Source: Uranotaenia lowii (lineage: Eukaryota; Arthropoda; Insecta; Diptera; Culicidae). From it: a stretch of 64,000 nt of DNA. Numbering within the stretch: position 1 is the stretch's first letter; each line of letters opens with the position of its first letter. Of this stretch, positions 2,601-59,557 are shown in pieces. The stretch is taken from the NCBI RefSeq assembly GCF_029784155.1, contig NW_026597189.1, positions 1-64,000 on the forward strand, in the 5' to 3' direction. The notes beneath the pieces were generated by a model that saw only the letters and a program-made list of their open reading frames with translations, did no database searches and had not been told where the DNA came from. The translations under genes and the position numbers were made by a program.

Positions 2601-3318
2601 TACACTCAGAAAAATACTATTATGTATGCCATAAGATTCTCTTATGAAGTGGCGCCATAAGAAAAATTAATGAAATTCATAAGATTGTCTTATGACGCGA
2701 ATGAGTTCTGAAGATGAACGCCTACTTCAATGAGAGGTTGTTGCTTTTCATAAGAGATTCTTATGGAAACAGTAAATCACTTTCTAATAAGAAAAATTCT
2801 CGATATTTCATGATGAAAACATTAACTTTATTGTTTGCAAATTTGTTTAAAATTAAATCCTTCATGGTCACCATCAGCAGCGCATCAACAGACGGCTCCA
2901 TCAAAGTTTTTTTTTGCAGCATCTTAATCTTCGACCTTTCGTTTTTTGCCGATCAGCTTGCTGAAAAGTAAACAAATAATGTATTTTAGTTTACTAATAT
3001 ATTCAACGTTCACACCAAAAACATCAAATCGAACTTACCATTCCGGAGATAACAATAACATTTAACATTGAAGGAAAACTATAATAACTAATGAACTGGC
3101 GATTGCTTCGTACTGTTAGATGATGAAAAAAAAAATGATGCTATGAATGAATGTGTTCATCATTTTTTCACAATGCCGTTTCTTCTATTTTTCATAAGAA
3201 CATCGTCTGAAAATTGAAAGAATTTCATAAGACTCTCATGAAAAAATAGTTTGGACTCAAAAAAGTGGTTCATAAGATGTATTTTATGAAATTTATAATA
3301 AGATTTCCTCTGAGTGTA
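2601..3318 (+). mobile_element. CATAAG-rich mini-element, copy 1 (intron-bearing)
   Basis: A 718-bp unit has inverted ends TACACTCAGA and TCTGAGTGTA and is repeated nearly identically at 5668-6382. The TA ends suggest a TA target site of the Tc1/mariner type. The inside is dotted with CATAAGA...TCTTATG mini-palindromes. On the minus strand there is a conserved splice pair: donor GTAAGTTCG from 3038 and acceptor TTTACTTTTCAG ending at 2961, giving a 78-nt intron. The 30-nt exon before it starts with ATG at 3068. Spliced, it reads MLNVIVISGM then QADRQKTKGR and about 10 more residues. No transposase is present. Splicing is inferred, not demonstrated. Confidence 0.75.
2961..3068 (-). other. Predicted first exon and intron of the mini-element transcript
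   Basis: Exon 1 is 3068-3039 (ATG, exactly 10 codons) and the intron is 3038-2961. The same layout occurs in the second copy (6133-6104; intron 6103-6028), with identical exon 1 and intact splice signals. No known protein is recognised in the product. Confidence 0.45.
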
Positions 3319-4589
3319 GAAAAATCAACATAATGAAATTTGCAGAAGGAACTATATGCTCTTTAAACGAAATCTTTTTCTTTTGGCAATGCTGCCTAAT
3401 TTGGTACTCGTTTTGAATTGAGCCACTGATTTTGTTTCAGAAAAAAAGCAAACATTATTTAGTTGTTTGGAGAGAAAGTTCATTTAAGATTTGGATTATG
3501 TGTCTGTTTTAATATGAATTATAATTTCAAAAATAGTTCAGTCAACATTTGCCGCAAGATTTCTGTATGATGTGTTAATTTATGATACCCCTCTAATGCA
3601 GGGGTGAGCAACCTTTTGAACCAACGGGCCAATTTAAATTTGAAATTTTGTCGGTGGGCCAAACTTAAAATATTTTTTTGTGATAATTAAGTGCTGAACG
3701 TCACTTTTCATAACTACAAATTTTTGGCGAAAACAAATCTAAAAAAAAAGATAAAACGAATTCACGTTTTTGAAAACAGTAATTCATGGCAGTAACAACA
3801 AGGCTTTTTTTTTTTTTAAAATAAACCGATATTGAAAAGGTACCTCGCTAAATCTTTGACATCTTTAAATTTTCTCATTTTCTAATAGTTTTTAATAGAA
3901 CTTCTTTGCGAACATTCGTTCTTACAACATTCTTGTTTAAACCGATGATATTATTCGTCATCACTTCCATTTAAAAATCTTTTGGAGCTTACCACAGTGA
4001 AAGCTAAGAGTTTGATAAATATATTTTTAAAGCAATCACAGTCTTCTTAACATTGAACGTTGAATCGCTATTTGACTTTATGTGATTTTTTTTCCTCCAT
4101 TAGGGCATCCGCAGCAATCGCGAGCAAAGTGAAAATGCTCACGAGTTTAATCACTTCCATACCGCACCGGGGGTTAGTATGAAGGTGAGCAAAATAGGGC
4201 CGATGCCGTCGGGACCGACGAAATCACCAAATTTGCTCACTAGAAAGGGGCGAGAGCAAACATGCACTGAAAAAAATTCTACCGTTTTGAGCAGAATTAA
4301 ACAAACGATGTCGCAGCGTGTAGATGTTTGTTGATATTTATTTTAAGAAAAAACTGTATCAGATTAAAATTGTGGATGGTTTTTTTTGGAATTACCAGTT
4401 AAATTTGCAATTTCGTTACATTTTTTCGGGTTTTTCCAAGAATTGAACGAGAAAGTGTACATGCTGGTTCTGATGGTGAGTTATTTATTTTGTATTTTAT
4501 ACTGTTTTGGAATTTTTTCTATCTATGAATTTTGATAACATTTTTTCCTTTCTCACTCAATTTCAGATAAACAAACTTGAAGCATCGTA

Positions 4590-4868
4590 ATTTGTGACCA
4601 AAAATGGTCACTCGGAGTTTCTCGGAGTAATAATAATCGAGACCAGTGCGCTGTGCAGGATTTTTGTATCCAACCGGCCAATATGGGTGGCATTCCAGTA
4701 CTGTCCCTACCGATTCGGCTTTCGAAACGAGGTCTCTCAATAAGTTTGCAACTAATGGGACCCAGTTTTTCGGAGCAGCAACTATTTCAATCAGCACGTT
4801 GGATAGAAAAAGAAGTTGAAGATTTTTTAGAGAAGTATGATTTTAATATAAATATAATAAACAAATAA
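4590..4868 (+). pseudogene. C-terminal fragment of glutamyl-tRNA(Gln) amidotransferase subunit A (GatA-like amidase)
   Basis: The reading [19 protein letters not shown], then [20 protein letters not shown] and [20 protein letters not shown], matches the C-terminal end of amidase-signature proteins. The best fit is mitochondrial GatA, which helps make Gln-tRNA(Gln). The frame is open from about 4590 to a TAA at 4866-4868, and poly(A)-like AATAAA motifs follow. A splice-acceptor-like TTTCAG lies just upstream near 4566. The catalytic Ser-Ser-Lys part of the enzyme is absent, so this is a partial copy. It sits inside the hAT element, so capture of a host 3' exon is plausible. GatA against another amidase is inference. 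Confidence 0.6.
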
Positions 4869-5111
4869 AGTTGAATTTTAGTTGAATTGTTTAGTTTGTT
4901 GAATTTTGTTTTTCGGGTGTGTTAGGGTGTGTTTCGGGGGTGTTTCGGGGGTGTTAAGAAATAAAAGTGCCCGGCGTTTTGAAAACAAAATCGAGCTTAA
5001 TTCGAAAATATATTCTTATCTGAACTTATTCTTATCTGAATTTATTTTATTCAATCAAGTCGTCCTACAATGCAATAAGTTTTTAATCACAATCCAGCAA
5101 ACGGGTGACAC

Positions 5112-5348
5112 GGAATTGGAAACACCGTAAGGGAAACTCAACGCTTTACCGAAAGGATCAATGTTGAATCGGTCGCCGAAAACAACCACCACCGGTTGAA
5201 AGCGGTGTCCTATAGATATGATGACGAGGCCAAGCGAAGCAAACATCCTGCTCGGAAGTTCTTGCTGCATCCGTCATCGGACCCGATTACTGGTGTTCAA
5301 AGTTGCTTGGCCTTGCTGCTGCTGTACGGCATGTTCAACCAGGATGTA
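5112..5348 (+). pseudogene. Unidentified coding-like fragment
   Basis: An open plus-strand frame of about 79 codons ends with TAG near 5348 and has natural-looking amino acid content (RLKAVSYRYDDEAKRSKHPA, KFLLHPSSDPITGV). I do not recognise the family. It has no good ATG, lies ~240 bp from the GatA fragment inside the hAT element, and may be another captured host fragment. It could also be chance. Confidence 0.35.
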
Positions 5349-5667: not shown

Positions 5668-6382
5668 TACACTCAGAAAAATACTATTATGTATGCCATA
5701 AGATTCTCTTATGAAGTGGCGCCATAAGAAAAATTAATGAAATTCATAAGATTGTCTTATGACGCGAATGAATTCTGAAGATGAACGCCTACTTCAATGA
5801 GAGGTTGTTGCTTTTCATAAGAGATTCTTATGGAAACAGTAAATCACTTTCTAATAAGAAAAATTCTCGATATTTCATGCTGGAAACAATCACTTTATTG
5901 TTTGCCAAATTTGTTTAAAATTAAATCCTTCATGGTCACCATCAGCAGCGCATCAACAGACGGCTCCATCAAAGTTTTTATTGTCGCATCTTAATCAGCG
6001 ACCTTTCGTTTTTTGCCGATCAGCTAGCTGAAAAGTAAACAAATAATATATTTTAGTTTACTAATTTATTCAACGTTCACACAAAACATCAAATCGAACT
6101 TACCATTCCGGAGATAACAATAACATTTAACATTGAAGGAAAACTATAATAACTATAAACTGGCGATTGCTTCGTACTGTTAGATGATGAAAAAAAAACT
6201 GATGCTATGAATGAATGTGTTCATCATTTTTTCACAATGCCGTTTCTTCTATTTTTCATAAGAACATCGTATGAAAATTGAAAGAATTTCATAAGACTCT
6301 TATGAAAAATTAGTTTGGACGCAAAAAAGTGGTTCATAAGATGTATCTTATGAAATTTATAATAAGATTTCCTCTGAGTGTA
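5668..6382 (+). mobile_element. CATAAG-rich mini-element, copy 2 (intron-bearing)
   Basis: This is the second copy of the 2601-3318 element, in the same orientation and nearly identical, with the same ends. The minus-strand intron is 6103-6028 (76 nt; GTAAGTTCG to TTTTCAG) and exon 1 is 6133-6104. The spliced frame reads MLNVIVISGM then LADRQKTKGR before a stop, so splice sites and exon 1 are kept while the downstream frame has changed. Confidence 0.75.
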
Positions 6383-7327: not shown

Positions 7328-7331
7328 TTAA

Positions 7332-8167: not shown

Positions 8168-9016
8168 CACACAAAACTTTCGGGGCTCCACTTAGCAAAA
8201 TTTGGCTGTTACTTTCCCTTAGCAAAAATATTTTTTTACTGTTGAGTTAGCAAAAAGTTCAATTTACTTGATTTTAGCAATAAAAAGGTTCATTTTACTT
8301 GATTTGAGCAAAACAAAATTTTTCTAGCCGCTTTGTTTATGGACAGCAGCCGCCGTCGGTTGATCAATAAAATAACAACTTGACGCGATTAAGTGCGGTT
8401 CCGGAGTTCGATGCTGACGGTTCTCGTTGTGGCTAAGTAAACGACAAAATGATAGCCAAATCGACACCGGATTCGGACAGGTAAGGGCCGATCATATAAA
8501 GCGCAAATTTTGGATTTTTAAATTAAAAATTTCTTGTTTTTTTCTAACAGGTTACAACTGGCAGCGAAAACGACAGATTTTAGCAACTGTCCGGAAATTT
8601 TGAGGGTTGCATCCGGCGAATTCGTTAGTTAAGGTCGGAAACTTGGCATTTCCCTTGCCGGAAGGTACATTTCCAGAACGGTACTAATTTAATTACATTT
8701 TACAAATAAGTGTTTAATAATGTCACGAAAAAAGTATGAAAAATAAACTAAAAGTTTAATGATTTGTGTATTCTAGTCAATAATCAAACATTCCCCTGAT
8801 TCTCCAGAGAAAAAAATAACAAAACATGAAATTACGGATCCGGACAATCTTTTTCTCCGGTTTTTGCTAGAAATTTGAGCAAAAACTGCGGCGGCTAACT
8901 TTTTTCTCGTTTACTAAAACTTTAGTTAAAAAATATTGCTAAATTGGTTGCTAAGTTTTTAGCTGGTCAAATTTGAGCAAAATTTTGCTAAATTCCGGCC
9001 TCGAAAATTTTGTGTG
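8168..9016 (+). mobile_element. TTAGCAAA-rich mini-element, copy 1 (intron-bearing)
   Basis: An 849-bp unit has inverted ends CACACAAAACTTTCG and CGAAAATTTTGTGTG, is flanked by TA on both sides, and has a second copy at 37424-38352. Both subterminal zones are packed with TTAGCAAA / TTTGCTAA words. The plus strand carries ATG at 8449, a 32-nt exon to 8480, an intron 8481-8550 (GTAAGG to TTTTCTAACAG) and an in-frame stop at 8630-8632. The spliced frame is 38 codons beginning MIAKSTPDSDRLQLAAKTTD. No transposase. The product is unlike anything I know. Confidence 0.75.
8449..8632 (+). CDS. Predicted spliced micro-ORF of the TTAGCAAA mini-element, copy 1
   Basis: Exon 1 is 8449-8480 (32 nt), the intron 8481-8550 (70 nt), and exon 2 8551-8632. 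The frame stays open across the junction (codon AG|G, Arg). Copy 2 at 37666 has an ATG exon of exactly the same length, encoding a similar start (M-I/V-A-K/R-x-T-P). This is the best support that the exon is real. Expression and function are unknown. Confidence 0.4.
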
Positions 9017-14402: not shown

Positions 14403-14876
14403 TGTTGCGGTAACCCGTGACGAACGAGTGAGAGTACCGTCCATTCCCTCGGTCGGAAATACGTCATACGAAGTAAACAGGATAGTGTCATCTAAGTAGT
14501 ACTCTTGAAGGTAGATAGCGTGTTCTCGGATAGAGTTGCGAATCAGATTATTTCGAAGATCATTTAAATTGTTACCCACAGTATATCATATCTTAGTTTG
14601 TACACGAAAAGTGGATAAGGTGAGGAATTTAAAGTTGAATTTAAACTTGAGATCGATATTAATCATTTTCCACCTGCATACTAATTTACAGGAAAGAGTT
14701 TGAGGTTAACTTGTGACAAGCTAGAGAATTCATAGAAAAGGATTAACACTAAATTTTGTAAGAAGGTATGCCTAAACTATTCGATTCCTATATTAACTAT
14801 TCAATAAATTCTAGCTTAAAGCTGTACTGAACTGAACTGCTAAAGAAGAGTGTTATACGAATTCTCTACCGCCACA
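14403..14876 (+). repeat. 5' LTR of the BEL element
   Basis: 474 bp, TG...CA ends, identical to the 3' LTR on line-by-line reading. AATAAA at 14803-14808 is a candidate polyadenylation signal. Its antisense strand contributes codons in frame with ORF1 of the interrupted I element. Confidence 0.92.
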
Positions 14877-14930
14877 AACTTTAAGAAAATTTAAGACCCG
14901 AAGTTGGGGAAATTAAGAAGAACAGTTACC

Positions 14931-20783: not shown

Positions 20784-21160
20784 TACTCTTGAAGGTAGAT
20801 AGCGTGTTCTCGGATAGAGTTGCGAATCAGATTATTTCGAAGATCATTTAAATTGTTACCCACAGTATATCATATCTTAGTTTGTACACGAAAAGTGGAT
20901 AAGGTGAGGAATTTAAAGTTGAATTTAAACTTGAGATCGATATTAATCATTTTCCACCTGCATACTAATTTACAGGAAAGAGTTTGAGGTTAACTTGTGA
21001 CAAGCTAGAGAATTCATAGAAAAGGATTAACACTAAATTTTGTAAGAAGGTATGCCTAAACTATTCGATTCCTATATTAACTATTCAATAAATTCTAGCT
21101 TAAAGCTGTACTGAACTGAACTGCTAAAGAAGAGTGTTATACGAATTCTCTACCGCCACA
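20687..21160 (+). repeat. 3' LTR of the BEL element
   Basis: An identical copy of 14403-14876, followed by the CTAC target duplication at 21161-21164. Confidence 0.92.
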
Positions 21161-31740: not shown

Positions 31741-32865
31741 AACGCAGAAAAATATTTTTTATTTATAAGGAAAGTGCCGCAAAAACAAAAGATTTTTTTC
31801 TTTGGTTTTAGTATAAATAAAAAATCCTTTGGTTCAAATGCATTTTCCTTTGTTTCAAAGATTTTTTTCTTTTGAAAAATCTTTGATTCAGAATATTAAT
31901 GCTTTGATACAAAAACCAGTTTCATTTGACTCAAAGTTATTATCTTTGCTCAAAGGTAATTTAGATATAGATTTAAAAGCATTTATTCATTGAACCATTT
32001 TTCATGTATTCCAATTGGTAGATTTTTACCCTGTTGTTTCGAAGTTCCTATTAGGAGTTTGAATAATAAAAAGATACAATTTTAATTCTTAAATTCGTTT
32101 TTATTCACAAACACATAAAACACTGGTTCACTATAACCGAGTAGGGTCCTTGATATCGTTGACAAAGTTTCGCATTTTCCGTGGGCCGGTCAATAAACTT
32201 CCGAAAGCCACTCCAGCTGCTGGCTGGTCCGACTGGTGATTGCCGTTGAAGATTGGGCCGAAAGAATACGACTGCGGGATTTGGGAAGGTACTTTGCGCA
32301 GCTTTCACCATGTTCGAGAGACTTGGAAATCTATCCGTCGGCCGTGGTCCTGTAACTATACAAGCGTTTTAGAAAATCTTAAATTCACTTAAATATTCGC
32401 TATTTATTAATTTACACTTGCCATTTTGCATCCTGAATCCTCCTTATTTATTGCTTACTCCGATTCACTGGTTTGATTTTTAAAACGAGCGGCCGAACTT
32501 TATTAGATTTTTCGGTTTTCTGTTCTTCTTGCAAGTCAATCCAAAATATCTTCTAAGTTTGAAGTTTTTGTTTCAAAATATTATTCTTTTCCGTTTAAAA
32601 CATTTTTCTTTGGTTGAAAGAAAATTTACTTTATTTCTAAAGAAATATGCAATTGAACAAATTTCTTTTAAATCAAAGAATTTGTTTGAAATCAAAGTCC
32701 AAAATTATTCAATTCAAAAAATTTATTCTTTCTTTCAAAAATTATTCTTTTGAATCAAAACTATAATTCATTGATTCAAAGAAAACAGGAGTTGGATTCA
32801 AAAAAATGAATATTTTGAATCAAAGTCAGATTTAATCGTTCCAAAATTCAAGTTTACTCTGCGTG
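31741..32865 (-). mobile_element. Mini-element Y, copy 1 (intron-bearing)
   Basis: Ends ACGCAGA and TCTGCGT enclose flanks full of TTTGATTCAAAG-like words. The central unit on the minus strand has a splice pair: donor GCAAGTG (minor GC type) from 32421 and acceptor TAGTTACAG to 32350, a 72-nt intron. Copies 2 and 3 have a GT donor at the same place. If read from the ATG 10 bases before the donor, the spliced frame runs on past FPSLSNMVKAAQS and ends at TGA 32105, ~91 codons. The product is not recognised. Confidence 0.65.
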
Positions 32866-35192: not shown

Positions 35193-38100
35193 ATGATTCC
35201 GAATAAAGTGCTATCGTTCTTCATTGCGTTGCGGTTAGCTTCCGTTTACCTGGTTAGAACTTGGTACGTTCCGGACGAATATTGGCAAAGCCTGGAAGTT
35301 GCCCATCGGATCGCTTTTGGGTAGGTTATCTTTTGTAATCATAACGAAAGAGGGCAGCGGGTGAAGCGTTGGAATTTGAAGTTATGCTGAACTACGTGCG
35401 GTTTGTGTCTCTACTAAACATATGCATGTACTCAGAGAAAAGCGAATATTAATAAGCAAAATAATTTAACTTAATAATCAATTTAAATGTATACATTCCC
35501 ATAAATAAATAAAGTTGATATTTTAATTTTTGTTTATGGGTTTATGAGCGCCTGGCTGACCCGGAAAGGAAAAACAGAACGGTGGACAGAAGAGGAAAAT
35601 TTTGAATGAGAGTAGTTTAGCTTAGAAAAGGATAGCGGCAACAGAGCCCGAGGGTTCTGAAGCACCAGATTAGGGGAAGCGTTAAGATAGTGCTCGACGG
35701 ACTACACAGCAAGAAAAATTCGTGTAAATTTAGATCGAAAACGATGCACGAAAACGGAACATCGTTTTCGATGTAAAATTCTATCACGGTTTATTTTTTT
35801 CCAGGATGTAATTTTTGAGGCGTGTAAATTTGGATTGAAACCAATGCACGAGATCGGATCACTAAGGCCGTCGTGTAAAAATACACAGGGATGTAAATTT
35901 TTAAATTTATTATCGTAAATATTGATATTTTGGCTAAATATTCAGGTTTTTGCTTTTGTCTTTGAATGAATGCGCCCACATGTATTATTTTTAATTCACA
36001 TTTATTTACAAAACTGAAAATTAAAACACCATCACGGAAAGCGTCAAGCTGGAATTGTTGTTACATCCGATGATTCCCAGCACGCGGATGTTTTTACAGT
36101 TCAGCGTCATCAGTATCCTCGAATGGTTCCGGAACATCATGATCTTTCGGTCAGCACTTGGACACTTTAATTGATCTGACAAAAGTTTGTCCGGATAATA
36201 ACTGTCCGGATAAATATCAGCCTTTGCGAAAATATCTGACCTTGCTGTAATGGAGAAAAAAATAGTCAGTTTCAACCGCATTCTTCATTTCACGTATACT
36301 TACGACTTTAAAAGACTCTAGAAGTGCTGCTGTAGGTAGCTACGCCTTTGATCGACTCGTTTCCGAATAATTTTTCGACTTGTTTACTTTGTGCGCAAAC
36401 TAACGAAATATAAAAAGGCAGAAGTTAAATATTTGCATTCAATTTTAAATCAAACAGATCTAACTTTACACGGTTTGTGACATAAATTTCATTGACCGGT
36501 TGATTTTTACACGACGCAATGTAAAATTACATCAAAACGGTTTATTTCTATCTTATTTTTGAAAAAAGTCTAATATTACATCAAAAGGAGTTTAAAATTA
36601 CATCTTTTTGCAATTACACTCAAGAAAAAATAGATCACTCGTTTTTTAGATTCCGTGTACTTTTAGAAATTTTTTGCTGTGTAGGACGGTTGGTGGGCCC
36701 CATATGAACTTCGAGTTAACCCAACCTTCAATTCAACCGAGCAATAGTAGTATGGTATCAAATATGATATCATATGCTAACGCCTCGATATAATTGTCAG
36801 AAGGGTTCACTATCTTACCGTAGTTGAATTTTCCCTACCTGTCATCTACCTTACTCGTTTCCATAAATTTGGATTCTTCCTAGTTTGATTTAGAAATAAT
36901 CATAGATTTGCTAAGTAAAAAATATATTCAAGTGATTGATTCTACGCGACTACATGGTTATTCGATAACTCAATTGGGATATCATAAAAACAGAATCTAG
37001 AAAAGGTGTCTCTTAAACTTATCAACAATGAACTATAAGCTTAAATAGCAATAGATTTATTAATATCATCAACTTATCAACGGAACAGGAAAATAACAGT
37101 GCTGTTCTTTAAAACCTTATCACTAATTGTGGTCAACTTCTCAAACAAACTTTAATACTCAATCTACACGATAGAGGTTCAATTCAAATAAACCGTGTGC
37201 CTGTTTTTAAATGCCCGAAAACAATGATCTGAACTATCTACTCATACTTGCTTATCGAAATCATATTTTCTATTTTAAACTTCGATTTATGAATTTCAAT
37301 CCTAACCGAAAAATGTATAAATCTACCAAAAGTAAATAAATAAATAAAAACAAATGTCGAAAGTGTATTACAAACTGAAATATCATATTTGTCAAAACAG
37401 CTTTACCGTCCAATGAGCCCCTACACACAAAATTTTCGAGCCTCCACTTAGCAAAAATACTGCGTTACTTTCGATTAGCAATAAGGGTTGTTTTACTAAC
37501 GCGATAGCAAAATGCTTATTTTGCTTGAATTTAGTAAAAAAGTCAACTAGCTAGCCGCTTTGTTCGGATAGCAGCCGCCGGCTACGAGAGAAAGAAAAAT
37601 AAATCAACGTGAATCAGTACGATTGGCGGAACCTGTGGAGGCGGGGCTGATAAGTCAGTGACGAAATGGTAGCCAGACTAACACCGGAAGCGTACAGGTA
37701 AAGAACCGGTCATGACACGAACAGATTGAATTGAAGATCGATTTTTGAAGCAGGAAATTCTGTTTTTTTCTAGGAACTTACCAATGAATGAACTGTAATG
37801 CGGTTACGGAATCGGGTTCACTGCTAGTGGTGCCAAGGTGTGATGGCCAAGTGGCCGACGGAAGGTGGATAAAACATCGGAAGCGAATAGGTAGGATTCG
37901 ATTCGACCATGAGAAAATCCGGCTTTTAATATGCGAAATTATTTGTTTTCGCCAGGTTGTTCCTGCCGGCCATCATTGCAGGATGATCGACAAAAAGGAA
38001 CCATTTTCACCCGGGTGAAAGACCAATTCTAAAGATCAAGTGGACAAATTAGTTAGTTAGTTAAGTGACTTGCATTTTTTTTAAATAAATGAAGTGAAAT

Positions 38101-40538
38101 AATCTGTGTTGACTTTTTCATATTCCCTCCAGAATTTCCATAGAAAAAATAAAAAAAAATCAATATTCCTAATCCCCCGCGATCTTTTCCGCCGGTTTTT
38201 GCTAAAATTTCGGTAAAACATTCCGGCGGCTAACTTTTTCTCTCTTTTGCTAAAATTGTAGTAGAAAAAAATTGCTAAATCGTTTGCTAAATTTCTAGCT
38301 GGTCAAATTTGAGCAAAATTTTGCTAAATTCCGGCCTCGAAAGTTTTGTGTGTAGTTCTTGTAAAATGCTTGATTTAAGAATAAGCCAACGAAATTCATA
38401 AACCGCAAATGCACACTTTCTAGAGCATTGGGGAGGCGAATACCATTACCTATACCTAACCTAGCAATACTTGAAACATCCTAATTCTATGAAACTAAAC
38501 TAGCTAACTACCTTACCAAACAGATTATGCCCTATTGAAAAGTATCACTTTATGTCGGTAAAATGTGATATTTTCACTACAAAATTTTCCCATTGTTCAA
38601 CGGAAGGGAGGGCAAGTGTTTCAACTCCCATTCATCTTATCAGCATGGATCATGAAAAATTGGGACACCATTGAGCCTACCGCTAATTTGATTTAAATAA
38701 AGGTGTCCAGCACGCCTTCTAATTTGAGTCATATTATGATCCATGCTTGACAAGATGTGTGCAACGACCCTCTCAGGACAATGATAGTAAACCATCATTA
38801 TCACAAGCATGCACACCGCCGCCGTGACCCATGGGAACCCAGGGTACGGAAATAAAGTTGATATTTTAATTTAAAATTAAACTATTTATTATTTCACTAT
38901 CTCTTAAGAAAGAATCGAATAAATTACAATACCAGAGATATGCACGTTCTTATGAGATCTTGAATAACAATAGATTTATCATATCCAATACGTTGAAGAT
39001 GACCCCATATTCTATTCTTATCTTGTTTTTTTTTCTTTTCCTTTTCAGATATGGTCATTTAACCTGGGAATGGACGCAAGGCATCCGCAGTTATCTTTAT
39101 CCTTCGTTGATTGCTGGCTTATACAAGTTGCTTGCCTTAGTTCAGTATGATCAAGTGGAACTGCTTGTATTGCTACCACGCATATTGCAAGCCCTGATTT
39201 CTGCATACTCTGACTACCGATTTTATCAATGGTCCAACAAAAGCAAATGGTCTATTTTTGTTCTGGCATCATCATGGTTCTGGTTCTATACAGCATCGAG
39301 AACGTTGGCCAACACTTTGGAAACTTCATTGACTGTTATAGCGCTGAGTCAATTTCCTTGGGAATCTTCCGAATGCACAAAATTTTTATGGCCAGTTATG
39401 CTTTCAATTTTCATCAGACCAACGTCAGTCATTCCTTGGATTCCTCTATGTTTTTATCATTTAAAAAAATCAGCCCACCCAGTATGGGAATTGTTATTGA
39501 AGCGCTATTTGCCAATAGGAATTGCCATCGGCATCCTTTCAATAGCTGTCGATACTTTCCATCACGGTAGTCTTCTTACTTCACCGTATGAATTCCTGCG
39601 CTACAATGTTTTCAAGGGAATCGGAAGTTTCTACGGCGAACATCCGTGGTACTGGTATTTCAATGTTGGGCTACCAACGATTCTTGGTATTGGAACACTG
39701 CCATTTTTGCTGTCTACCGTTGAAACTCTGCGAAACCGTAATGTGTTCAAAGAGAAGTTTATTTTATTAACCGCCATTCTTTTCACTGTCATCGTATATT
39801 CTGCCCTGCCGCATAAAGAATTTAGATTTTTGCTTCAAATTCTTCCAATTTGTTTGTACTTATCAGCCGATTATCTGTCACGATGGAGTAGAAAAGCATC
39901 GGGGTAAGATGAATAATATACCTCAGACAAATGAGCTTTCAAATACATTTCATCATATTTCCAGGAAACTCGTTTGGCTAGCAGCTATTGTTCTTTTGAC
40001 ACTGAATGTCATACCAGCAGGATACCTGAGCCATACTCATCAACGCGGTACAATCGACGTTATGTCATCGCTGCAAACAATAGCAAAGGAATATCGTGAC
40101 GAGTACAATCAACCGGCAAAATTAATTTTCCTCATGCCATGCCATTCAACGCCGTTTCACAGCCACGTGCATCAGAATATCACAATGCGCTTCCTACACT
40201 GTGAGCCTAATCTTACCAATGATGAAAATTATCTAGACGAAGCTGCAACTTTCTACAAAGATCCAATGGGTTGGATTCGTAAAAACCTCCCGGTTCATCC
40301 AAGAAGTGCCTTACCGTCCCACGTTATTGCTTTCGACAGTCTTGAACCGAAAATTAAGGATTTTCTCTCCATATACGAGAAAAAGGAAACGTTCTTCCAC
40401 TCAGACTACACTACCGATAGAATTGGTAGCAACGTAGTGATCTACGAACGTTTTGATCCCAGCCGTGTGACCACAACTCAAGAACCAACTCCTCAGGATA
40501 ACGAAGAAATCCAACCGAATGACGAAGGCGAACCTTGA
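35193..40538 (+). CDS. PIGB: GPI mannosyltransferase 3 (PIG-B)
   Basis: Exons 35193-35320, 39049-39903 and 39965-40538 join in frame to 1557 nt (518 aa). The enzyme adds the third mannose from dolichol-phosphate-mannose to the GPI anchor core in the ER membrane. Seen: an N-terminal TWYVPDEYWQSLEVAH luminal motif with the acidic residues typical of GT22 mannosyltransferases, TWEWTQGIRSYLYP, many hydrophobic spans, and the family box HKEFRF near residue 320. Length is slightly below the human protein (about 554 aa). Splice sites are GG|GTAGGT to TTTTCAG and GG|GTAAGA to TTCCAG. The ATG follows CACGAGGAA, and the first 42 codons are all conserved-looking, so this start is preferred. AATAAA at 40622. 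Intron 1 (3.7 kb) is largely repeats. Ends facing NANS. Confidence 0.93.
35705..36681 (-). mobile_element. Mini-element P, copy 1 (intron-bearing), in PIGB intron 1
   Basis: Ends CACAGCAAGAAAAATT and AAATTTTTTGCTGTG are flanked by TA (35703-35704 and 36682-36683). It is a relative of 60697-61262. GTGTAAATT-type words are repeated inside. The minus strand has donor GTAAGTATACG from 36303 and acceptor TCCATTACAG to 36245, a 59-nt intron. The exon after it encodes acidic DVPEPFEDTDDAEL in one frame, similar in the other copy. No transposase is seen. Confidence 0.65.
36684..37421. other. Intron DNA without recognised element
   Basis: AT-rich, within PIGB intron 1. No coding signal or clear repeat. 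Confidence 0.4.
37424..38352 (+). mobile_element. TTAGCAAA-rich mini-element, copy 2 (intron-bearing)
   Basis: Same family as 8168-9016: ends CACACAAAATTTTCGAG and GAAAGTTTTGTGTG with TA on each side. ATG is at 37666, exon 1 is 37666-37697 (32 nt, same length as copy 1), and the intron is 37698-37773 (GTAAAG to TTTTTTTCTAG). A second candidate intron, 37891-37955 (GTAGGA to TTTTCGCCAG), follows a similar exon end (GGAAGCG..AG) and may be an internal duplication. Spliced frames are very short. Confidence 0.75.
38355..38849. other. Intron DNA, no gene
   Basis: 38580-38845 is more GC-rich (GCCGCCGTGACCCATGGGAACCC) and ends at the second 23-bp direct repeat. Possibly the terminus of a retroelement in reverse orientation, not identified. 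Confidence 0.35.
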
Positions 40539-48995: not shown

Positions 48996-49170
48996 CTGTA
49001 AAATCAGTTGAGCGACAATGGATTTTTCTCGGAGTAGGTAAGTTAAACCTAACGTCGGAAGTAGTGCGCTGGATGGCGGGTCACCGTACGATTCCAGCGC
49101 ACTACTTCCGACGTTAGGTTTAACTTACCTACTCTGAGAAAAATCCATTGTCGCTCAACTGATTTTACAG
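48996..49170. mobile_element. 175-bp foldback with 78-bp arms
   Basis: CTGTAAAATCAGTTGAGCGA at 48996 opens a 78-bp arm that is repeated in reverse complement at 49093-49170 with about one mismatch. The spacer is 19 bases. The other copy of repeat X lacks it, so it is an insertion, but no clear target duplication is visible. Confidence 0.7.
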
Positions 49171-49985
49171 CGCTGGACTGGCGACACAATATCGTCAATG
49201 AGCGCTGGCGACATTTACTAGCGACACTCACTGGCGACAAGTTATTATCAGGACGTGTACAACTTCGGGTGTGTTCTTATACCAAAGATTTTTTATTTCA
49301 AAGGAAAGTGCTGCAAAAACAAAGGATTTTTTCCTATGGTTTTGATATAAATAAAAAATCCTTTGGTTCAAATGCTTTTTTCTCTGTTTCAGAGATTTTT
49401 TCTTTTGAAAATCTTAGATTGAAAATATTAATGCTTTGATACAAAAACCAGTTTCATTTGATTTAAAGTTATTATATTTGCTCAAAGGTAATTTAGATAT
49501 AGATTTAAAAGCATTTATTCATTGAACCATTTTCCATTTATTCCAATTGGAAGATTTTTACCCTGTTGTTTCGAAGTTCCTATTAGTAGTTTGAATAATA
49601 AAAAGATACAATTTTAGTTCTTAAATTCATTTTTATTCACAAACACATAAAACACTGGTTCACTTTAACCGAGTAGGGTCCTTGTTATCGTTGACAAAGT
49701 TTCGCATTCTCCATGGGCCGGTCAATAAACTTCCGAAAGCCACTCCAGCTGCTGGCTGGTCCGACTGGTGATTGCCGTTGAAGATTGGGCCGAAAAAATA
49801 CGACCGCGGGATTTGGGGAGGTGTTACTTTGCGCATCTTTCTCCATGTTCGAGAGACTTGGAAATCTATCCGTCGGCCGTGGTCCTGTAACTATACAAGC
49901 GTTTTAGAAAATCTTGAATTCACTTAAATATTCAGTATTTATTAACTTACACTTACCATTTTGCATCCTGAATCCTCCTTATTTA

Positions 49986-52900
49986 TTGTTTATTGTTTAT
50001 TGTTTATTGAAAATAATATCATCTGACATAGGTGTCTTAATGATCTACTTAATACTATTTGTACATAACATTATAGGCATTCTTAGTTTCGTAATTGTAC
50101 GCTTAAATCAGATTCAATCCGACGTCTAAAAATTGAAACGGATACATTAAAGTCAAAGTGTGTAAAATGACGTAAAAAGCATGTTATTGCGGAACGTAGA
50201 GGGTCGTTGCTGCCATAGCGTGTACTTCTTGATTCCAGAGAGAGCCAATTTCGATTGCGAAGAGTTCGTTCTGGTGCATAGATGTTACATCGGGAAAGCA
50301 GCCATGCGCAATCGATTTCGTTCCGTAAAATCTTTGCCACGAATAGAGATTGGCCGATGGAATGACGATTCGATAACGTCTGGAGACCAAGCAGGGCATA
50401 AGGTGGCAGGTTTAAAGGATTCTCCCAGGGTAGCTCACGAAGAGCATAACGCACAAATCGTCGTTGAATGGCCTCAAAACGCGTAATCCAAGCAGCTTCG
50501 AAAGGCCACCATACCAGGTTCGCCGATTCCAGTATAGATCGAACCAGGCAGCAATACAGAGCTCGCAAGCAGATCGGATCGGTGAATTCTTTACTCAAAC
50601 GTATGATGAATCCCAGCATGCGGTTTGCCTTTTCAAGTACCACAGAGTAATGACGTTTAAAAGTCATACGAATGTCCAATAAGACGCCAAGATCCTTTAT
50701 TTCCTCCACACGATGCAACTGCTCACCCAGTATATTGTAATTATACAAGAACGGATGTTTCCTGCGCCCAAAAGTTATAATACAGCACTTCGAAACGCTC
50801 AAAACCAATAAATTACAGGCACACCAGCTCACTACTATATCCAGGAAGCGTTGTAACGCGTAACAATCAGCTAGACTGTTTATAACTAAATATATTTTTA
50901 GATCGTCTGCATACTGGAGAACGCCACATCCCATGAGTAGCAAATTTATATCATTACAGAACAGCGTAAACAGTAATGGACCCAGATTGCTGCCTTGTGG
51001 TACGCCAGAGTTTGGAATGAAATCAAAAGATTCAGCAGAACCAATTTTAACAGCTAATCGGCGATTCGTTAGGTAACTTTTTATCCATGCACACAGTCTT
51101 TCGGAAAATCCTAAGCGTTGCAATTTTTTCAGGAGGATTTCATGATTCACTGAATCGAATGCAGCTGATATATCTGTGTAAATAGCATCGATTTGTTTGC
51201 CGCCATCCATTTTCGATATACAGAAGGATGTGAAAACTGTTAGATTTGAAGTTACCGATCGTTTAGGGAAAAATCCATGCTGATTCTCAGAGATCCAGTT
51301 CCGACAAGCTGAGAACATAACATCGTTGACGATCCTCTCCAATACCTTTGAGCATGCAGCTAGCGATGTGACACCTCTGTAATTAAGAACATCTTGTTTG
51401 TCGCCTTTTTTGTGGACTGGACTCATATGCGATTTTTTCCAGATGGAAGGGAATTTCTGTTGTACCAGGGACTGATTAAAGATGTGGGTAAGAGGTTTTA
51501 TCAGTGAATTGCGACATTTTTTCAATACGCACGCTGGTATTCCATCTTGTCCGAATGAAGTGGAATACTTCAAATTAATGATAGCCTCTGAGACCATTTC
51601 CTCACTAATAGCAAAAACGTCCAGATCCAGAACATCAATGGGTAATCGCGTGACGGCAGCGTTTAGCTGATCGGCAGTTGGCGATTCGACTGAAAAGATA
51701 CTGGAGAAGTGCGTTGCAAAAAGGTTGCATTTTTCAGCAGGTGACGTAGCAAATCTACTATTTAATTGGAGTATCGCAGGAAGACCGGATTCTTTCCGTT
51801 TGGAGTTCACAAATTTCCAGAACTGTTTTGGATTACGCCGAAGTTTACTCTGAGTGCGATTTACATAAAGGCGATAGCAAAGTCGATTGTATATCCTATA
51901 TCGTTTTGTAGCATCATTTAGTTTGATTTTTGTAAATGGGCACCTGGAATTACAAAACTTCCGCAGCAATTTCGAACGTGTCTGTTTCAAACGCTTCAGG
52001 TGAGCATTAGTCCAAGGAGGTCGAAGAGGAGGCCGCACCAGGGGTACGGATTGGTCAAAAACATCATCCAAAATTGCGCAAAAAGTACTAACAGCCATAT
52101 CAACATCAGTACAGCTATGGAAATTAGACCAATCATATTCAGAGAGAACACGGTTGATTGTATCGAAATCCGCACGACTAAAGTCACGAGCAGATGTATC
52201 GAAAACCTCTACAAACTCAATGGGATTCGGGAACGAAATTTCAAATTGTAAAGGAGGATGATACATGTCTATTGGGACGACGACATCGCTGGCCTCGATT
52301 ATGGAGCTGATAATAATAGATTCATCCAAAAAAACCAAATCCAACGTTCGATTTTGGAAGTTACGTATCCCGTTTCGTTGATTCATTCCATTCAATGTTG
52401 TTCCGTCCAAGAGTTGAGCACTAGCAGTGTTCAATAATGAGGAAGAATCCAACACCATGCTGTTACTTGGTCCAGGAATCCACAACAATTGCGGCTGATT
52501 GAAGTCACCAAGAAAAATAATACTACTTGAAGGGTGTTGTATTCTAGCTTCTGATAACGCATCAACATGTAACTCGATAATTGAGCTATCCTGACTTTTT
52601 TCCGGTGGTATATATGCTGATCCAATCAAGAATGAGTTACTTCCATTGGACACCTTCACCCACAAGTTTTCTATGCTATCGTCGTTAAATGTAACGATTG
52701 ATGAACTAAGCTTGCTTGAAACCGCTATGAGGACCCCGCCACCTCGACTACGACGGCTATTGGCACTATTTCTGTCGCAGCGAAAAACATTAAACTCAGA
52801 ACCGAATAGTTGACTAGAAGGTATTGAAGAATCAAGCCAGGTTTCGGTGAATGTGTAGATTTCGTAGCATAGTTCAGATGCGGCAATAAAGCATTCAGAA

Positions 52901-53167
52901 ATTTTAGATTTCAAACCACGCACGTTCTGGTAATACAGGCGCAGAATGTTCATGGATGGCTCAAAAATGTGTTGCGACGTTTTCTGATGAAAGACAGGAG
53001 GGCTTCTGCAAGACGAGGACGGGTCACTGAACGCAGCGAAAGATATAAATGGGTACTTGCCTGATTGCACAGGCTGGAGAGCCCCGTTGCCTTCTTCGAA
53101 CACAGGGCCGGGACGACTGTTGTCGCTGGCTGGAATCTGCGCGACTGTGACGAAGGGCTCGGGGGCC
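49986..53167 (-). mobile_element. CR1/Jockey-type non-LTR retrotransposon without RNase H
   Basis: Flanked by a 13-bp target duplication TCCTCCTTATTTA (49973-49985 and 53168-53180). The 3' end, on the minus strand, is a tandem tail of four CAATAAA units (TTTATTG at 49982-50009 on the plus strand), like elements that end in short tandem repeats. One ORF (endonuclease plus reverse transcriptase) occupies nearly all of it. No ORF1, so probably 5' truncated. Exact clade uncertain. Confidence 0.85.
50083..53166 (-). CDS. Endonuclease / reverse transcriptase of CR1/Jockey-type element
   Basis: The frame is open from the 5' junction (53166). The first ATG is at 52953 (MNILRLYYQNVRGLKSK), giving 956 aa. 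The upstream ~70 codons (APEPFVTVAQIPAS...) are open too but start only with GTG, hinting that the native protein began beyond the truncation. Endonuclease: YYQNVRGL, TETWLD, RGGGVLIAV, FLGDFNQP. Reverse transcriptase: NYRGVTSLAACSKVLERIV, HGFFPKRSVTSNL, YTDISAAFDSVNH, SGVPQGSNLGPLLF and catalytic QYADD. No stop or frameshift inside. No RNase H. It would nick target DNA and copy its RNA there. Minus strand, inside mini-element Y2. Confidence 0.85.
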   Translation of the reverse strand, partial: APEPFVTVAQIPASDNSRPGPVFEEGNGALQPVQSGKYPFISFAAFSDPSSSCRSPPVFHQKTSQHIFEPSMNILRLYYQNVRGLKSKISECFIAASELCYEIYTFTETWLDSSIPSSQLFGSEFNVFRCDRNSANSRRSRGGGVLIAVSSKLSSSIVTFNDDSIENLWVKVSNGSNSFLIGSAYIPPEKSQDSSIIELHVDALSEARIQHPSSSIIFLGDFNQPQLLWIPGPSNSMVLDSSSLLNTASAQLLDGTTLNGMNQRNGIRNFQNRTLDLVFLDESIIISSIIEASDVVVPIDMYHPPLQFEISFPNPIEFVEVFDTSARDFSRADFDTINRVLSEYDWSNFHSCTDVDMAVSTFCAILDDVFDQSVPLVRPPLRPPWTNAHLKRLKQTRSKLLRKFCNSRCPFTKIKLNDATKRYRIYNRLCYRLYVNRTQSKLRRNPKQFWKFVNSKRKESGLPAILQLNSRFATSPAEKCNLFATHFSSIFSVESPTADQLNAAVTRLPIDVLDLDVFAISEEMVSEAIINLKYSTSFGQDGIPACVLKKCRNSLIKPLTHIFNQSLVQQKFPSIWKKSHMSPVHKKGDKQDVLNYRGVTSLAACSKVLERIVNDVMFSACRNWISENQHGFFPKRSVTSNLTVFTSFCISKMDGGKQIDAIYTDISAAFDSVNHEILLKKLQRLGFSERLCAWIKSYLTNRRLAVKIGSAESFDFIPNSGVPQGSNLGPLLFTLFCNDINLLLMGCGVLQYADDLKIYLVINSLADCYALQRFLDIVVSWCACNLLVLSVSKCCIITFGRRKHPFLYNYNILGEQLHRVEEIKDLGVLLDIRMTFKRHYSVVLEKANRMLGFIIRLSKEFTDPICLRALYCCLVRSILESANLVWWPFEAAWITRFEAIQRRFVRYALRELPWENPLNLPPYALLGLQTLSNRHSIGQSLFVAKILRNEIDCAWLLSRCNIYAPERTLRNRNWLSLESRSTRYGSNDPLRSAITCFLRHFTHFDFNVSVSIFRRRIESDLSVQLRN

Positions 53168-53180
53168 TCCTCCTTATTTA

Positions 53181-53748
53181 TATTATAGCGCCAGCACTAA
53201 ATTTTACTTCGGAAGTCCGGACTTCCGATCCCGAACTTACTTCCGAACTTTTGACAGTTGTGTTTAAAAAATAACAGTGTACTATATGCAAGGTTGCCAC
53301 ACATAAATGTGTATCCACCAGAGTATCTCTAAATACATAAAGCGGGTCACAGACTACACAACATTGGTACAAATGCGATGAAATTTTGTTGCTGAGAACA
53401 CGATTTGCATCGTGTATGGCACTGCTTGTATCATCGCCCAAACGGTTTGAGTAAAATCGGTCGGGATCGAAATATTTTGTACAAGCCACCCTCTGCCGGG
53501 GTTGAAATGTTTTTTTGTTGTTGTTGCTGTTACTGTTTTCGTCAGCAATCGTTTATGTTCGCGTGAAATATACTCTTACGGGCAAGAAAGAGATACACAA
53601 ACGATTCAAATGAATTTGTGGCAACGTTGATTTTATGTGAATTTGGCGCACGCTTAAATAAAATGACTCAAAATGTTTTGGTCGGAAGTCAGCCATGATG
53701 CCAGTTCACCAAAGACGTTTATAAAATTTTTATCTAAACGCACAATAG
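53181..53748. repeat. Dispersed repeat W, copy 2
   Basis: 53340-53575 matches 33233-33456 plus 34065-34085. It begins after the CR1 target duplication and ends where repeat Y2 resumes (GCTTACTCCGATTCACTGG). An 18-bp perfect palindrome CGGAAGTCCGGACTTCCG lies at 53210-53227. No coding sequence. Confidence 0.6.
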
Positions 53749-54325
53749 CTTACTCCGATTCACTGGTTTGATTTTCAAAACGAGCGGCCGAACTTTATTC
53801 GATTTTTCGGTTTTCTGTTCTTCTTGCAAGTCAATGCAAAATATCTTCTAAGTTTGAAGTTTTTGTTTCAAAAAATTATTCTTTTCAGTTTAAAACATTT
53901 TTCTTCGGTTGAAAGAAAATTTACTTTGTTTCTAAGAAAATATGCAATTGAACAAATTTCTTTTGAATCAAAGAATTTGTTTGAAATCGAAGTCCAAAGT
54001 TATTCAATTCAAAAAATATTTTCTTTCTTTCAAAAATTATTCTTTTCAATAAAAACTATAATTCATTGATTCAAAGAAAACAGGAGCTGGATTCAAAAAA
54101 ATGAATGTTTTGAATCAAAGTCAGATTTAATTCGTTCCAAAATTCAAGTTTACTCTGCGTGAATACACGGAATCGTCCATCTTGTGACAGGCAATCGTAA
54201 TCATAGGCATGGTAGGCGAACAATTCGCTGTCAAAAAGCGCTCCGTCTCCACCCCCCACCAATGAAAAACTTTTGGTACTCCTTGCCTACTGTTGCTCAA
54301 TATGCAACCACCCGTAGCTGTATAG

Positions 54326-55339
54326 CACGCAGAGAAAACTTGGATTTTGAAACAAAACAAAACTGACTTTGATTCAAAAAATTCATTTTTTGGATTCAAT
54401 CTCCTGTTTACTTTGAATCGATGAATTATGGTTTTGTTTCAAATGAATAATTTTTGAAAGAAAGAATTAATTTTTTGAATCGAAAAATTTTGGACTTTGG
54501 TTTTAAACAAATTCTTTGATTCAAAAGACATTTGTTCAATTGCAAATTTATTTGGAAACAAAGTAAATTTTCTTTCAACCAAAGAAAAATGTATTCAATG
54601 CAATGGAATAATTTCTTAAAATAAAAACTTCAAACTTAGAAGGTTTTTTGCATTGAGCAAGAAGAATTTAAAACGAAAAATCGGTTCAAGTTTGGCTGGT
54701 CGTGTTAAAATGTGGATCAGAATTAGCTTGGTTAGCAGGATTCCGGATAAAGTATGGTAAGTAATTGAATGTTAATTAAAGAATAAATATTGAAGAATTT
54801 CAATAAGTGCTTGCAATTTTACAGGACCACGGCCGATGAATGGCTTTCCAAGTCCATGGATGCCTCATCCGAGGTGACACCGCTCCAATCCAACGATCAG
54901 GTCCACGAAAATTGAAACCAGATGATTCGATTAAAGTAAACCAGTTTGTGACCTAGTGTTTAATTTATTTGTGAAAGAAAATAAATTTTATTTTTAAAAT
55001 CGTTTCTTTTTATTATTTGAAATTCCTAATAGGAATTTTAAAACAACAGAAAATATTTCTTCCAATTGGAATAAATAGAAAATGGTCCAATGAATTAATG
55101 CTTTTAAATCTAAATTAAATTACCTTGTGGCAAAACAAAGCAACATTAAATCAAAAGAAACTGTTTTTTGTATCAAAGTACTAGTATTTTGAATCAAAGA
55201 TTTTTCAAAAGATAAATTCTTTGAAACAAACGAAAATTCATTTGACACAAAGGAATTTTTATTTATCCCAAGATCAAAGGAAAAAATCCTTTGTTTTTGC
55301 GGCACTTTCCTTTGAAATAAAAAATCTTTTCGCTGCGTG
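54326..55339 (+). mobile_element. Mini-element Y, copy 3 (intron-bearing, opposite orientation)
   Basis: Ends CACGCAGAG and CGCTGCGTG; subterminal TTTGATTCAAA-type words. The central unit is on the plus strand here: exon from ATG 54710, donor GTAAGTAATTG at 54757, acceptor TTTTACAG to 54824 (68-nt intron), stop TGA at 54913-54915. The spliced frame is 45 codons starting MWIRISLVSRIPDKVW. The sequence just after the acceptor (GACCACGGCCGA) is shared with copies 1 and 2, but the reading frames differ between copies, so protein coding is less certain than the intron. Confidence 0.65.
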
Positions 55340-55474: not shown

Positions 55475-55482
55475 ATATCGGG

Positions 55483-55701
55483 CAAGGTTCTTAGATACAC
55501 TAGGTTCTCCGACTTTCACAGTAAGTAGGCGAGGAGTGAGCGGGGCTCTCAATGAGTTTGTTTATTTTTTGCTCAGCTTTTCTGTGGTTTGTTGGTAAAC
55601 AAACTTCATGAGTTCCGCATAGTTGCATAGCCTACATAGCCAAAATGGCTGAATCGGGAATTCGTTATTCGGGAACACCTCCTGAATATATACCCACCTT
55701 G
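55483..55701 (+). mobile_element. 219-bp mini-element, forward copy
   Basis: Starts CAAGGTTCTTAG, ends ACCCACCTTG, and is flanked by ATATCGGG on both sides (55475-55482 and 55702-55709), an 8-bp target duplication. No coding sequence. Its mirror copy starts 23 bases later. Confidence 0.8.
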
Positions 55702-55724
55702 ATATCGGGCAAGATAGTATCCGC

Positions 55725-55943
55725 CAAGGTGGGTATATATTCAGGAGGTGTTCCCGAATAACGAATTCCCGATTCAGCCATTTTGGCTATGTAGGCTATG
55801 CAACTATACGGAACTCATGAAGTTTGTTTACCAACAAACCACAGAAAAGCTGAGCAAAAAATAAACAAACTCATTGAGAGCCCCGCTCACTTCTCGCCTA
55901 CTTACTGTAAAAGTCGGGGAACCTAGTGTATCTAAGAACCTTG
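55725..55943 (-). mobile_element. 219-bp mini-element, reverse copy
   Basis: Near-perfect reverse complement of 55483-55701, of the same length. It has its own 8-bp target duplication GTATCCGC (55717-55724 and 55944-55951). Two independent insertions in opposite orientation explain the apparent giant palindrome. Confidence 0.8.
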
Positions 55944-55951
55944 GTATCCGC

Positions 55952-56912: not shown

Positions 56913-56914
56913 TA

Positions 56915-57780: not shown

Positions 57781-57782
57781 TA

Positions 57783-58509
57783 AATCAATCTTTTCGTTCA
57801 TTTTTTAAAATTTTAATTTTTTCAAATTATCTGTATTGGTGTATCATATCTTTATATTAAACTTTATGCGCTTCTCGTCGGTCTGTATGCATGAACAATT
57901 TGTTACTTTAAACTATTGGATTTGTTTTAGTTGTAACATTTCATGGATACGTTATATAAAAATTTAAATAGTTTCAGCCTAAGACAGTATAAAGTGTTAA
58001 ATTTTAATTTTAATTTTTTTACGACTAGTGGTTGTATAAATTTAATTTTTAATAAAATTTCTCCAAAGAAATCATATAAGGTCTGATAAAGTACAAAACA
58101 TGATATAACCATTGAACGATGTGAATTGCATACCGTCAAAGTAAACTTAAATTGTGTATTTATCCAAGGATATATTTTTTCCATGGCATTTTTACCACCA
58201 TCAAATATCCAAATTCGCCTTATAGCTTTAAAATTATTACGCCTAATAGTATGCAGCTGCAGAAGGAAACCTAATAGAAAATATCAAAAATTTATGTTTT
58301 TTCGAATAAAAAAATTCTAGCTTACCAATTGTTGGTTCTTTCCCAAATTTTGAAGGAATGTTAATTGATTTCTTCTTTAACAAACTGCAATTGAAAATGT
58401 GCATTTGGCTTGAGTTTTCATTCAGAAATATGTGAAATACTCTGAAGAGTTTTTGGCGTAGTAAAAAATTGACCATTTTTGTTGTCCATTTGCGATGCTT
58501 CACGGAACA
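57783..58509. other. AT-rich, no gene seen
   Basis: Only short chance frames. No repeat boundaries recognised. Confidence 0.4.
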
Positions 58510-58511
58510 TA

Positions 58512-59557
58512 GGGGAGATGGGGGCATAATGGCCACCTTAAGGAAAACGGTTATTTAACCATAGAAAATAGCTATTATATGGAGGTTACATTATTGTTTC
58601 GTGTTCAGACACTTGAAAAGCCTATTCCCTAATGGGCTGAAACGTGAAAAACTAGATGAAAACGTCAAAAAATGCATTTTAAAACATTTTGCCAAAAGCT
58701 GAAAACCAGCCACTGTGGAGGCATAATGAGAACCCCCCCTGAGGCAGTATGAGCACCATTAATCAGAGCAAGATGTGCGTTTTTGCCGGGGAATCTAGCA
58801 GCGAATTCAATTCGATGAAGTCAGGTGAGTCATAGATTCATCAAACAAAGCAATAACAAAATAATCTAGGTCTGTTTGTAGAATACAAACAATTCACGCA
58901 CGCTCATACATTATGTGCTTTGTTCGGAGGATGATGCTACTAGCCGTATAATGTAACAATAAAAAAAATCGATCATGAATTGTGAATGGAAAAAAATCAC
59001 CTCGAACAGAAATCTAACTCTAGTCTTTTGATTACCTCTCCGACACCTTACCAATAGGCTAAATTGTCGGATGAAAACTAGTCAAGGTGTGGCGCTATAA
59101 ATCAATTTTAATTCGCTGCTAGATTCTATGGCAGAAAATGCTCATTATGCCCCGATAATATGGTGCTCTATATGCCCCTAGTCAACAAATTTAAGTAAAA
59201 ACGTGTTTTAAATTTGATAAAAGTGAAAAATCAAAAATTTAATGATGGTAAAAATTGAGAAACAATGTGTACATCATGTTGCAGTGCGTACATTATAGAT
59301 CAAGGTTATTTTAAGAACGTAAGAGCTTATTTCGTGGTGCTCAAAAATTATAATATTTTCGTAACTTGAGAACCAAGCTAGTTTTTTTTTAAATATCTCT
59401 GTAAAGATGATAAGGAGATTCCTTTTTTTGTGAAAAATTAATACTATAGGAAGTACGAAACAAATCCTCATGAAAATTTATTTAAGAAAATACGCACTTT
59501 CGTAGAAAAGCGTAGTTCTCATTATGCCTCGGGTGCTCGTTATGCCCTCATCTCCCC
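58512..59557 (+). mobile_element. 1046-bp TA-flanked element with iterated GGCATAATGAGCACC words, possible intron
   Basis: Inverted ends GGGGAGATGGGGGCATAATG and its near reverse complement CGTTATGCCCTCATCTCCCC, flanked by TA (58510-58511 and 59558-59559). Variants of GGCATAATGAG / CTCATTATGCC recur at both ends. Plus strand: ATG at 58773, 52-nt exon, GTGAGT donor at 58825, TTTGTAG acceptor to 58881 (57 nt), stop at 58932-58934. The spliced frame is 34 codons starting MCVFAGESSSEFNSMKSEYK. Only one copy is in the window, so splicing rests on motif alone. Confidence 0.7.

Follow-up and report, generated by a model that had tools for sequence, protein, structure and literature searches.

Why should a miniature transposon carry an intron? 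Miniature inverted-repeat transposable elements (MITEs) are usually described as being without internal functional content, and a 64,000-nucleotide stretch of the mosquito Uranotaenia lowii (contig NW_026597189.1, positions 1 to 64,000, here called the window) holds several families, which we name C, T, Y, and P, most of whose members have one short GT..AG intron. The explanation that we favor, and that we hold at about even confidence, is that these are non-autonomous elements with a maintained, spliced, and probably non-coding transcription unit, which would have descended from the gene of an autonomous element. The intron signals are strong in C, T, and Y3, the third copy of family Y, and in T the donor, the acceptor, and the AATAAA persist through diverged lineages despite breakage of the reading frame.

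The elements and the strength of their introns

The window is part of contig C227 in the searched assembly of 1.08 Gb and 2009 contigs, three of which are of 216, 370, and 437 Mb, and it has a GC content of 37.7%. Self-BLAST bears out the paired copies that had been claimed at these positions, together with several other repeats, and the short inverted ends are there as well. Family C (CATAAG) has two copies on the minus strand, C1 at 2603..3316 and C2 at 5670..6380, placed by sequence and alignment, with 29 aligned rows and the intron scan for C1 and self-BLAST for C2. C1 lies between target site duplications (TSDs) of TA at 2601-2602 and 3317-3318, and has its intron at 3038-2961 with an AATAAA 128 nt 3' of the acceptor; the C2 intron is at 6103-6028. 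Family T (TTAGCAAA) is on the plus strand, with T1 at 8168..9016 (intron 8481-8550; a 37-codon ATG-led frame spans the junction and AATAAA comes 191 nt past the acceptor) and T2, of a diverged lineage, at 37424..38352 (intron 37698-37773). In family Y, the subfamily D copies Y1 (31742..32865, minus strand, intron 32421-32350 with a GC donor) and Y2 (49284..54162, minus strand, intron 49956-49885, interrupted by a non-long-terminal-repeat element at about 49982-53744) lie within one larger repeat whose flanking sequence is common to both by self-BLAST. Y3, of subfamily A, is at 54326..55339 on the plus strand, with a 2-bp TSD of AG, an intron at 54757-54824, and a 45-codon ATG-led frame spanning the junction. 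P1 is at 35705..36681 on the minus strand with TA on both flanks, and the donor of its intron, 36303-36245, has a perfect intronic half and a poor exonic half; P2, from 60696 to about 61260 on the same strand, has lost its 5' part including the donor and retains the acceptor. A fifth element at 58512..59557 on the plus strand has ends GGGGAGATG.., TA on both flanks, and a marginal intron at 58825-58881.

The GT..AG pairs of the original prediction are found in C1, C2, T1, T2, Y2, Y3, P1, and the fifth element. Because C1 and C2 are 96.5% identical by self-BLAST and Y1 and Y2 have common flanks, agreement within those pairs tells little. The fifth element had been called single-copy, which does not hold: at locus L094, a T copy is broken by an element with ends like those of the 58512 family, a piece of a similar element, so this family is repetitive too.

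To score the introns, a hand-typed position-weight matrix was run over whole elements, with 150 shuffles of each. The introns of C1, T1, and Y3 score 20.3, 22.2, and 19.2, with 0/150 shuffles as high, and those of three further T lineages, TB, T97, and Tm, score 24.1, 23.1, and 22.2, above every shuffle; in all 6 the named intron comes out as the top-scoring GT-AG pair. For comparison, 4 putative introns of host genes, picked by hand in the window, score 17.0-20.8 at lengths of 60-75 nt, and the C1, T1, and Y3 introns are in or above that range. Weaker introns are those of T2 (17.9, P = 0.033), the 58512 element (17.3, P = 0.053), and P1 (15.6, P = 0.087, with a best antisense score of 16.6, above the sense intron), while Y1 (12.3, P = 0.54) and P2 (6.6, P = 0.98, donor lost) fail the scan.

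Persistence of splice sites in genome copies

Genome searches were made for C, Y, Y-D, T, P, and the T2 3' end, with the best 40 candidates of each scored, and each gave at least 40-46 matches from 410-2184 candidates. The first T search (at least 41 matches, 953 candidates) led to 9 fetched loci that fall into diverged lineages; matches of the TB type end at the start of exon 2. The exon 2 relatedness test covered TA, Tm, TB, T97 (locus L097), and T2. For the first 4, whose exon 2s measure 188-197 nt, every pair is related (shuffle P no greater than 0.005), with frame-breaking indels and an end-to-end alignment of Tm with T97; the exon 2 of T2 against TA, Tm, TB, and T97 gives P = 0.165, 0.005, 0.71, and 0.115, and is hence at best distantly related. 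Since lineages should not be chosen by their intron, a second search used only the last 225 bases of T2 (at least 46 matches, 958 candidates), and 11 of the 46 matches were fetched, picked to span identities. An intron scoring at least 17.5 stands at the corresponding place in 10 of these 11 loci; one of these introns has 62 nt and the others 67-78 nt. In L122 a T 3' end adjoins other transposons, but T sequence is missing upstream and 5.6 kb contain no T 5' end; L124 is a cluster of T2-type copies. The lineage set omits L115, L117, and L121 as near copies of L113, L116, and T2; it includes L114 (at a fetch edge) and L120 (with a rearranged 5' end), which are not full-length, and L113, where 2 neighboring acceptors are possible and the second was used. 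This leaves 11 T lineages with pairwise identities of 0.59-0.91, 7 of them found by way of the 3' end alone.

Drift was simulated in 4000 runs on a neighbor-joining tree made from leader, exon 1, and intron interior with the splice windows masked. An intron score of at least 17 is found in 11/11 lineages against a neutral mean of 1.9, and 0/4000 simulations reach 11; GT-AG in all 11 has P = 0.00025. For the 7 lineages sampled by the 3' end, the presence of the intron in all has P = 0.0000-0.0027 over 2 roots and 2 branch scalings, and GT-AG alone has P = 0.003-0.024. AATAAA is found downstream in 10/11 lineages, with L116 as the exception. Over 9 lineages, words of the donor, the acceptor, the poly-T, and the poly(A) signal rank among the most strongly conserved 8-mers in the core of T, and so do the leader words AGCCGCCG and AGCCGCTT, ACACCGGA, and the start-codon context; mean conservation in the intron middle (0.71) and in exon 2 (0.60) is lower than at the splice sites.

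The T2 lineage, as seen in T2 and L112, looks as if it carried a tandem duplication of exon 1 plus intron. T2 apparently has 2 exon-intron units with donors GTACAG|GTAAAG and GAATAG|GTAGGA, the second resembling the first, and L112 has 2 introns that both score well (22.6 and 17.5).

Copies of the other families were compared in the same search results. C has at least 41 matches (best 40 of 2184 candidates scored), and its alignment has 29 rows, of which C1 and C2 are two and the other 27 are copies found at 26 loci, after dropping the window's own locus L011, the duplicate contig L010, and partial second copies. GT and AG are invariant in these rows, with 0 differences in the 6 donor bases versus 1.9 expected at the mean rate, and 2 versus 5.6 in the last 18 intron bases; the C 3' part is also slow (36 versus 70.4). 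For Y (at least 41 matches, best 40 of 1058 candidates scored), the full-length set is 31 of 39 loci, 8 interrupted or incomplete ones being left out, and subfamilies A-C keep GT and AG in 31/31. Subfamily D had 40 matches listed from 410 candidates, and both splice sites are present in 4 of the 7 copies fetched; keeping the intron over the step from subfamily B to D has P = 0.026 against neutral change. In P, 14 of 40 listed matches (1174 candidates) were fetched and all 14 have GT and AG.

A second contig, G000:C1076, matches the window almost identically at its C, T, Y, and P places and is probably the other haplotype. C and T copies directly adjoin one another, in tandem or inverted, at L012, L091, L124, and G000:C2:276796549-276798784, and three T copies on contig C2 have an 872-bp period; such arrangements may reflect self-targeted insertion next to an end already present, or else amplification in tandem.

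What may have been kept, and why

It is very unlikely that the introns are chance GT..AG pairs picked by eye. The lax motif count in the window does equal Markov expectation (28 and 28 candidates per strand versus 24.6, standard deviation 5.8), the strict count is 13 in total versus about 5.6 expected with 5 in the named elements and 6 in 2 palindromic repeats, and P1, Y1, P2, and the 58512 element are weak. Plain motif counts are weak evidence for introns. Chance does not fit with C1, T1, and Y3 beating all their shuffles nor with a site kept in 11/11 T lineages. Motif strength and, in T, maintenance over the 11 lineages lend support, as far as sequence can, to the proposed class of spliced mini-elements. 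The companion proposal, that a spliced two-exon frame encodes functional micropeptides, is also very unlikely, if slightly less so. In its favor, ATG-led frames span the junction in TA, T2, Tm, L113, L119, L120, Y3, and 25/29 C rows, the start-codon context is conserved in T, and over the first 16 T codons in 8 lineages codon position 2 is the slowest (0.143 versus 0.299 and 0.315). That weak hint over 16 codons is all there is of a frame under purifying selection. The T ATG, 32 nt before the donor in the 6 T lineages just named, is absent in TB, L112, L114, L116, and L118 (5/11); a WxFNxL segment in 4 lineages, formerly coding-like, is in frame 0 in L116, 1 in L120, and 2 in TB and L113, with about equal change per codon position (0.23, 0.30, 0.28). 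As far as the stop of A, the Y subfamilies A and B are 9 nucleotides apart, and their peptides differ in 7 amino acids. A codon-2 stop is common to 7/31 Y copies, so a broken-frame form has multiplied. The 25 C frames have 29 codons in 17 rows, 34 in 4, 20 in 2, and 21 and 54 in one each, a length (20-54 amino acids) governed largely by an A-run. When seven typed peptides from C, T, Y, and 58512 were compared with Pfam, a single match came up, at E = 0.18; for the Y3 peptide there is no homolog candidate, and when 21 pairs of peptides were compared across families, Y_A/Y_B was the one pair with a likeness at P < 0.1. Given the lost ATGs, the exon 2 frame shifts, and the shared Y stop, a micropeptide is not what was conserved; that the T splice signals outlast the reading frame hints that splicing was kept instead.

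The main rival is that the elements are vestiges, namely deletion derivatives of autonomous CAC-ended transposons, each of which happened to retain exon 1, intron 1, and the poly(A) signal. The splice signals would then be visible only because little time has passed since the copies arose, or because the constraint was on their autonomous ancestors. We regard this as quite possible but on balance doubtful. The C, T-A, and P1-type copies listed among the best 40 scored are 95-100% identical to the query, and the exon 2s of T2/L112 and of Y-D are largely unlike the others, as separate derivations would give. A number of results weigh against our own reading, and the first of them also suits the rival. 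Slower change at splice sites in genome copies, which had been suggested as a check, is not significant in any family by block tests (in the C core, P = 0.23 when differences are counted and 0.41 when variable sites are; in family Y, P = 0.18; in family T, P = 0.09; in family P, P = 0.80), and in any event selection should not be visible in the post-insertion drift of copies from a single burst. The donor is gone by deletion or rearrangement in 3/7 fetched Y-D copies, and Y1 has its GC donor; T mean conservation is 0.78 in the leader against 0.79 at the donor and 0.78 at the acceptor. The drift result, though good, depends on the deep lineages and on how a fast core is aligned. Indels are absent from the simulation and its root is a guess, and when L112 and L118 are omitted, the remaining 5 lineages give P = 0.011-0.012 at full branch lengths, 0.08-0.10 at 0.6 branch lengths, and 0.055-0.18 for GT-AG only. 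The slow codon position 2 and the start-codon context hint that a T ancestor was coding, and constraint may have acted inside long relatives, since no autonomous copy was found. Set against the vestige account, TA, Tm, TB, and T97 have a related exon 2 yet strong introns, so repeated independent deletion explains T poorly, and no long relative was identified among the fetched copies. Deletion around a first intron, an alternative of the original prediction, is possible as an origin and fits T poorly as a repeated event.

Under the reading of a maintained transcription unit, C, T, Y, and P are MITE-like elements of the cut-and-paste type that would be mobilised in trans by a transposase, for which no candidate turned up in this analysis. 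Each has the anatomy of a miniature unit of the RNA polymerase II type, made up of leader, short exon 1, one 59-78-nt intron with spliceosomal motifs, short exon 2, and AATAAA. It may be what is left of an autonomous element's gene, of which exon 1, intron 1, and the poly(A) end would have survived. RNA polymerase II would transcribe the unit, its single intron would be spliced out, and a poly(A) tail would be added; source elements would have been kept for that spliced, polyadenylated transcript and not for a peptide. A possible benefit is that gene-like processing lets the element escape silencing; alternatively, better transcription may keep chromatin open for the transposase supplied in trans. 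The full form of this idea, a MITE-like class in which element-level selection maintains a spliced, polyadenylated non-coding mini-transcript with the intron as a pass against silencing or for open chromatin, we put forward tentatively and think unlikely. If splice and poly(A) signals are kept without a reading frame, then RNA processing itself can be a target of selection in selfish DNA. Mobile elements that lack introns are reported to be silenced by the HUSH complex in human cells (PMC8770142), and for introns as a mark of self in insects these families would be a natural test.

Surroundings, ends, and transposon class

The window has other occupants. At 14403-21160 there is a long terminal repeat (LTR) retroelement with long open frames that we take to be of the Pao/BEL-like type; its two 474-bp direct repeats are 100% identical by self-BLAST, so it is probably recent. 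P1 and T2 are inside the first large intron of what is presumably a PIGB-like gene at 35193-38900, judged by a first exon and later frames. Palindromic inverted repeats of the fold-back type, with arms 85-95% alike by self-BLAST, are at 25163-26112, 48996-49170, and 55483-55943.

Frames listed for the window and 6 larger loci include no transposase frame inside the elements, and no autonomous partner or long relative was found among the copies fetched. Long Y copies were the candidates. L078 contains an LTR element of the gypsy type as well as a nested insert of 1.14 kb; this nested insert recurs in L081, and L080 carries another insert with inverted arms. L079, which has no Y 3' end within 9 kb and no recognised transposase, is not excluded as an autonomous candidate. 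When viral contigs were scanned with 4 patterns, the hits numbered 0, 7, 2, and 0 stretches, and we take them for chance.

The terminal sequences are CACTCAGA for C, CACACAAA for T, CACGCAGA for Y, and CACAGCAA for P, all CAC- ends, and each of these families has its own short motif repeated near both ends (mismatches allowed, without a chance control); the termini of the 58512 element are unlike them. P copies were examined at the 5' end only. The C, Y, and T copies have 2-bp TSDs, matched dinucleotides that are often but not always TA: matched non-TA in 7/27 C copies and in 15/31 full-length Y copies, with AT in 2/31, while 8 T copies with both ends have 4 matched non-TA, 3 TA, and 1 unmatched, counts in which L013/L022 and L043/L044 share flanks, and are thus not independent, and L039 is the same insertion as Y3. 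Such matched non-TA dinucleotides rule out the strict TA target of Tc1/mariner, and a predominance of TA does not fit the AT TSD within AATT of ISL2EU. The families had been called unrelated, which the common CAC- ends, 2-bp TSDs, and subterminal motifs do not support; judged by these sequence features, the four families appear to form a single structural group. Their size of 0.7-1.1 kb, inverted ends, and many copies, with the 2-bp TSD of C, Y, and T, are those of MITEs.

CAC- termini and subterminal repeats are traits of CACTA elements, which end in CACTA/CACTG. The nearest known group is CACTA/Mirage/Chapaev (CMC), including animal TRC elements, and CAC- termini, subterminal repeats, and a 2-bp TSD are the likenesses to that group. 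Its ends differ, being CACTA/CACTG or CCC, and since no transposase was found here, the likeness is a resemblance and not membership. The TSD of CMC is given as 2-4 bp in a portion of PMC4482050, and that of an animal TRC element as 2 bp in a portion of PMC4298943. ISL2EU, in the same portion of PMC4482050, shares a 2-bp TSD, but it is AT in A|AT|T, whereas here it is mostly TA and variable. Rfam has no family at gathering score in these elements. Our literature searches turned up no paper recognised as describing intron-bearing MITEs, a statement made for those searches alone; the portions of PMC3422177 consulted describe no introns in mosquito MITEs, and passages of PMC3442997 do not mention introns. 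The mosquito MITEs of the mTA class in TEfam, as portions of PMC3422177 present them, are likewise short and non-autonomous, with inverted ends, TA flanks, many copies, and recent bursts, but our families have a 2-bp TSD that is often non-TA and a core with an intron and a poly(A) signal. The ATon families of Aedes aegypti (same portions) are also non-autonomous mosquito families, first annotated as TA MITEs, and they differ in being 112 and 144 bp long, with ends ATAGGCC and insertion at AT. Introners (PMC9860276) again join a mobile element to a spliceosomal intron; there, the element creates the intron, whereas here the intron sits inside the element.

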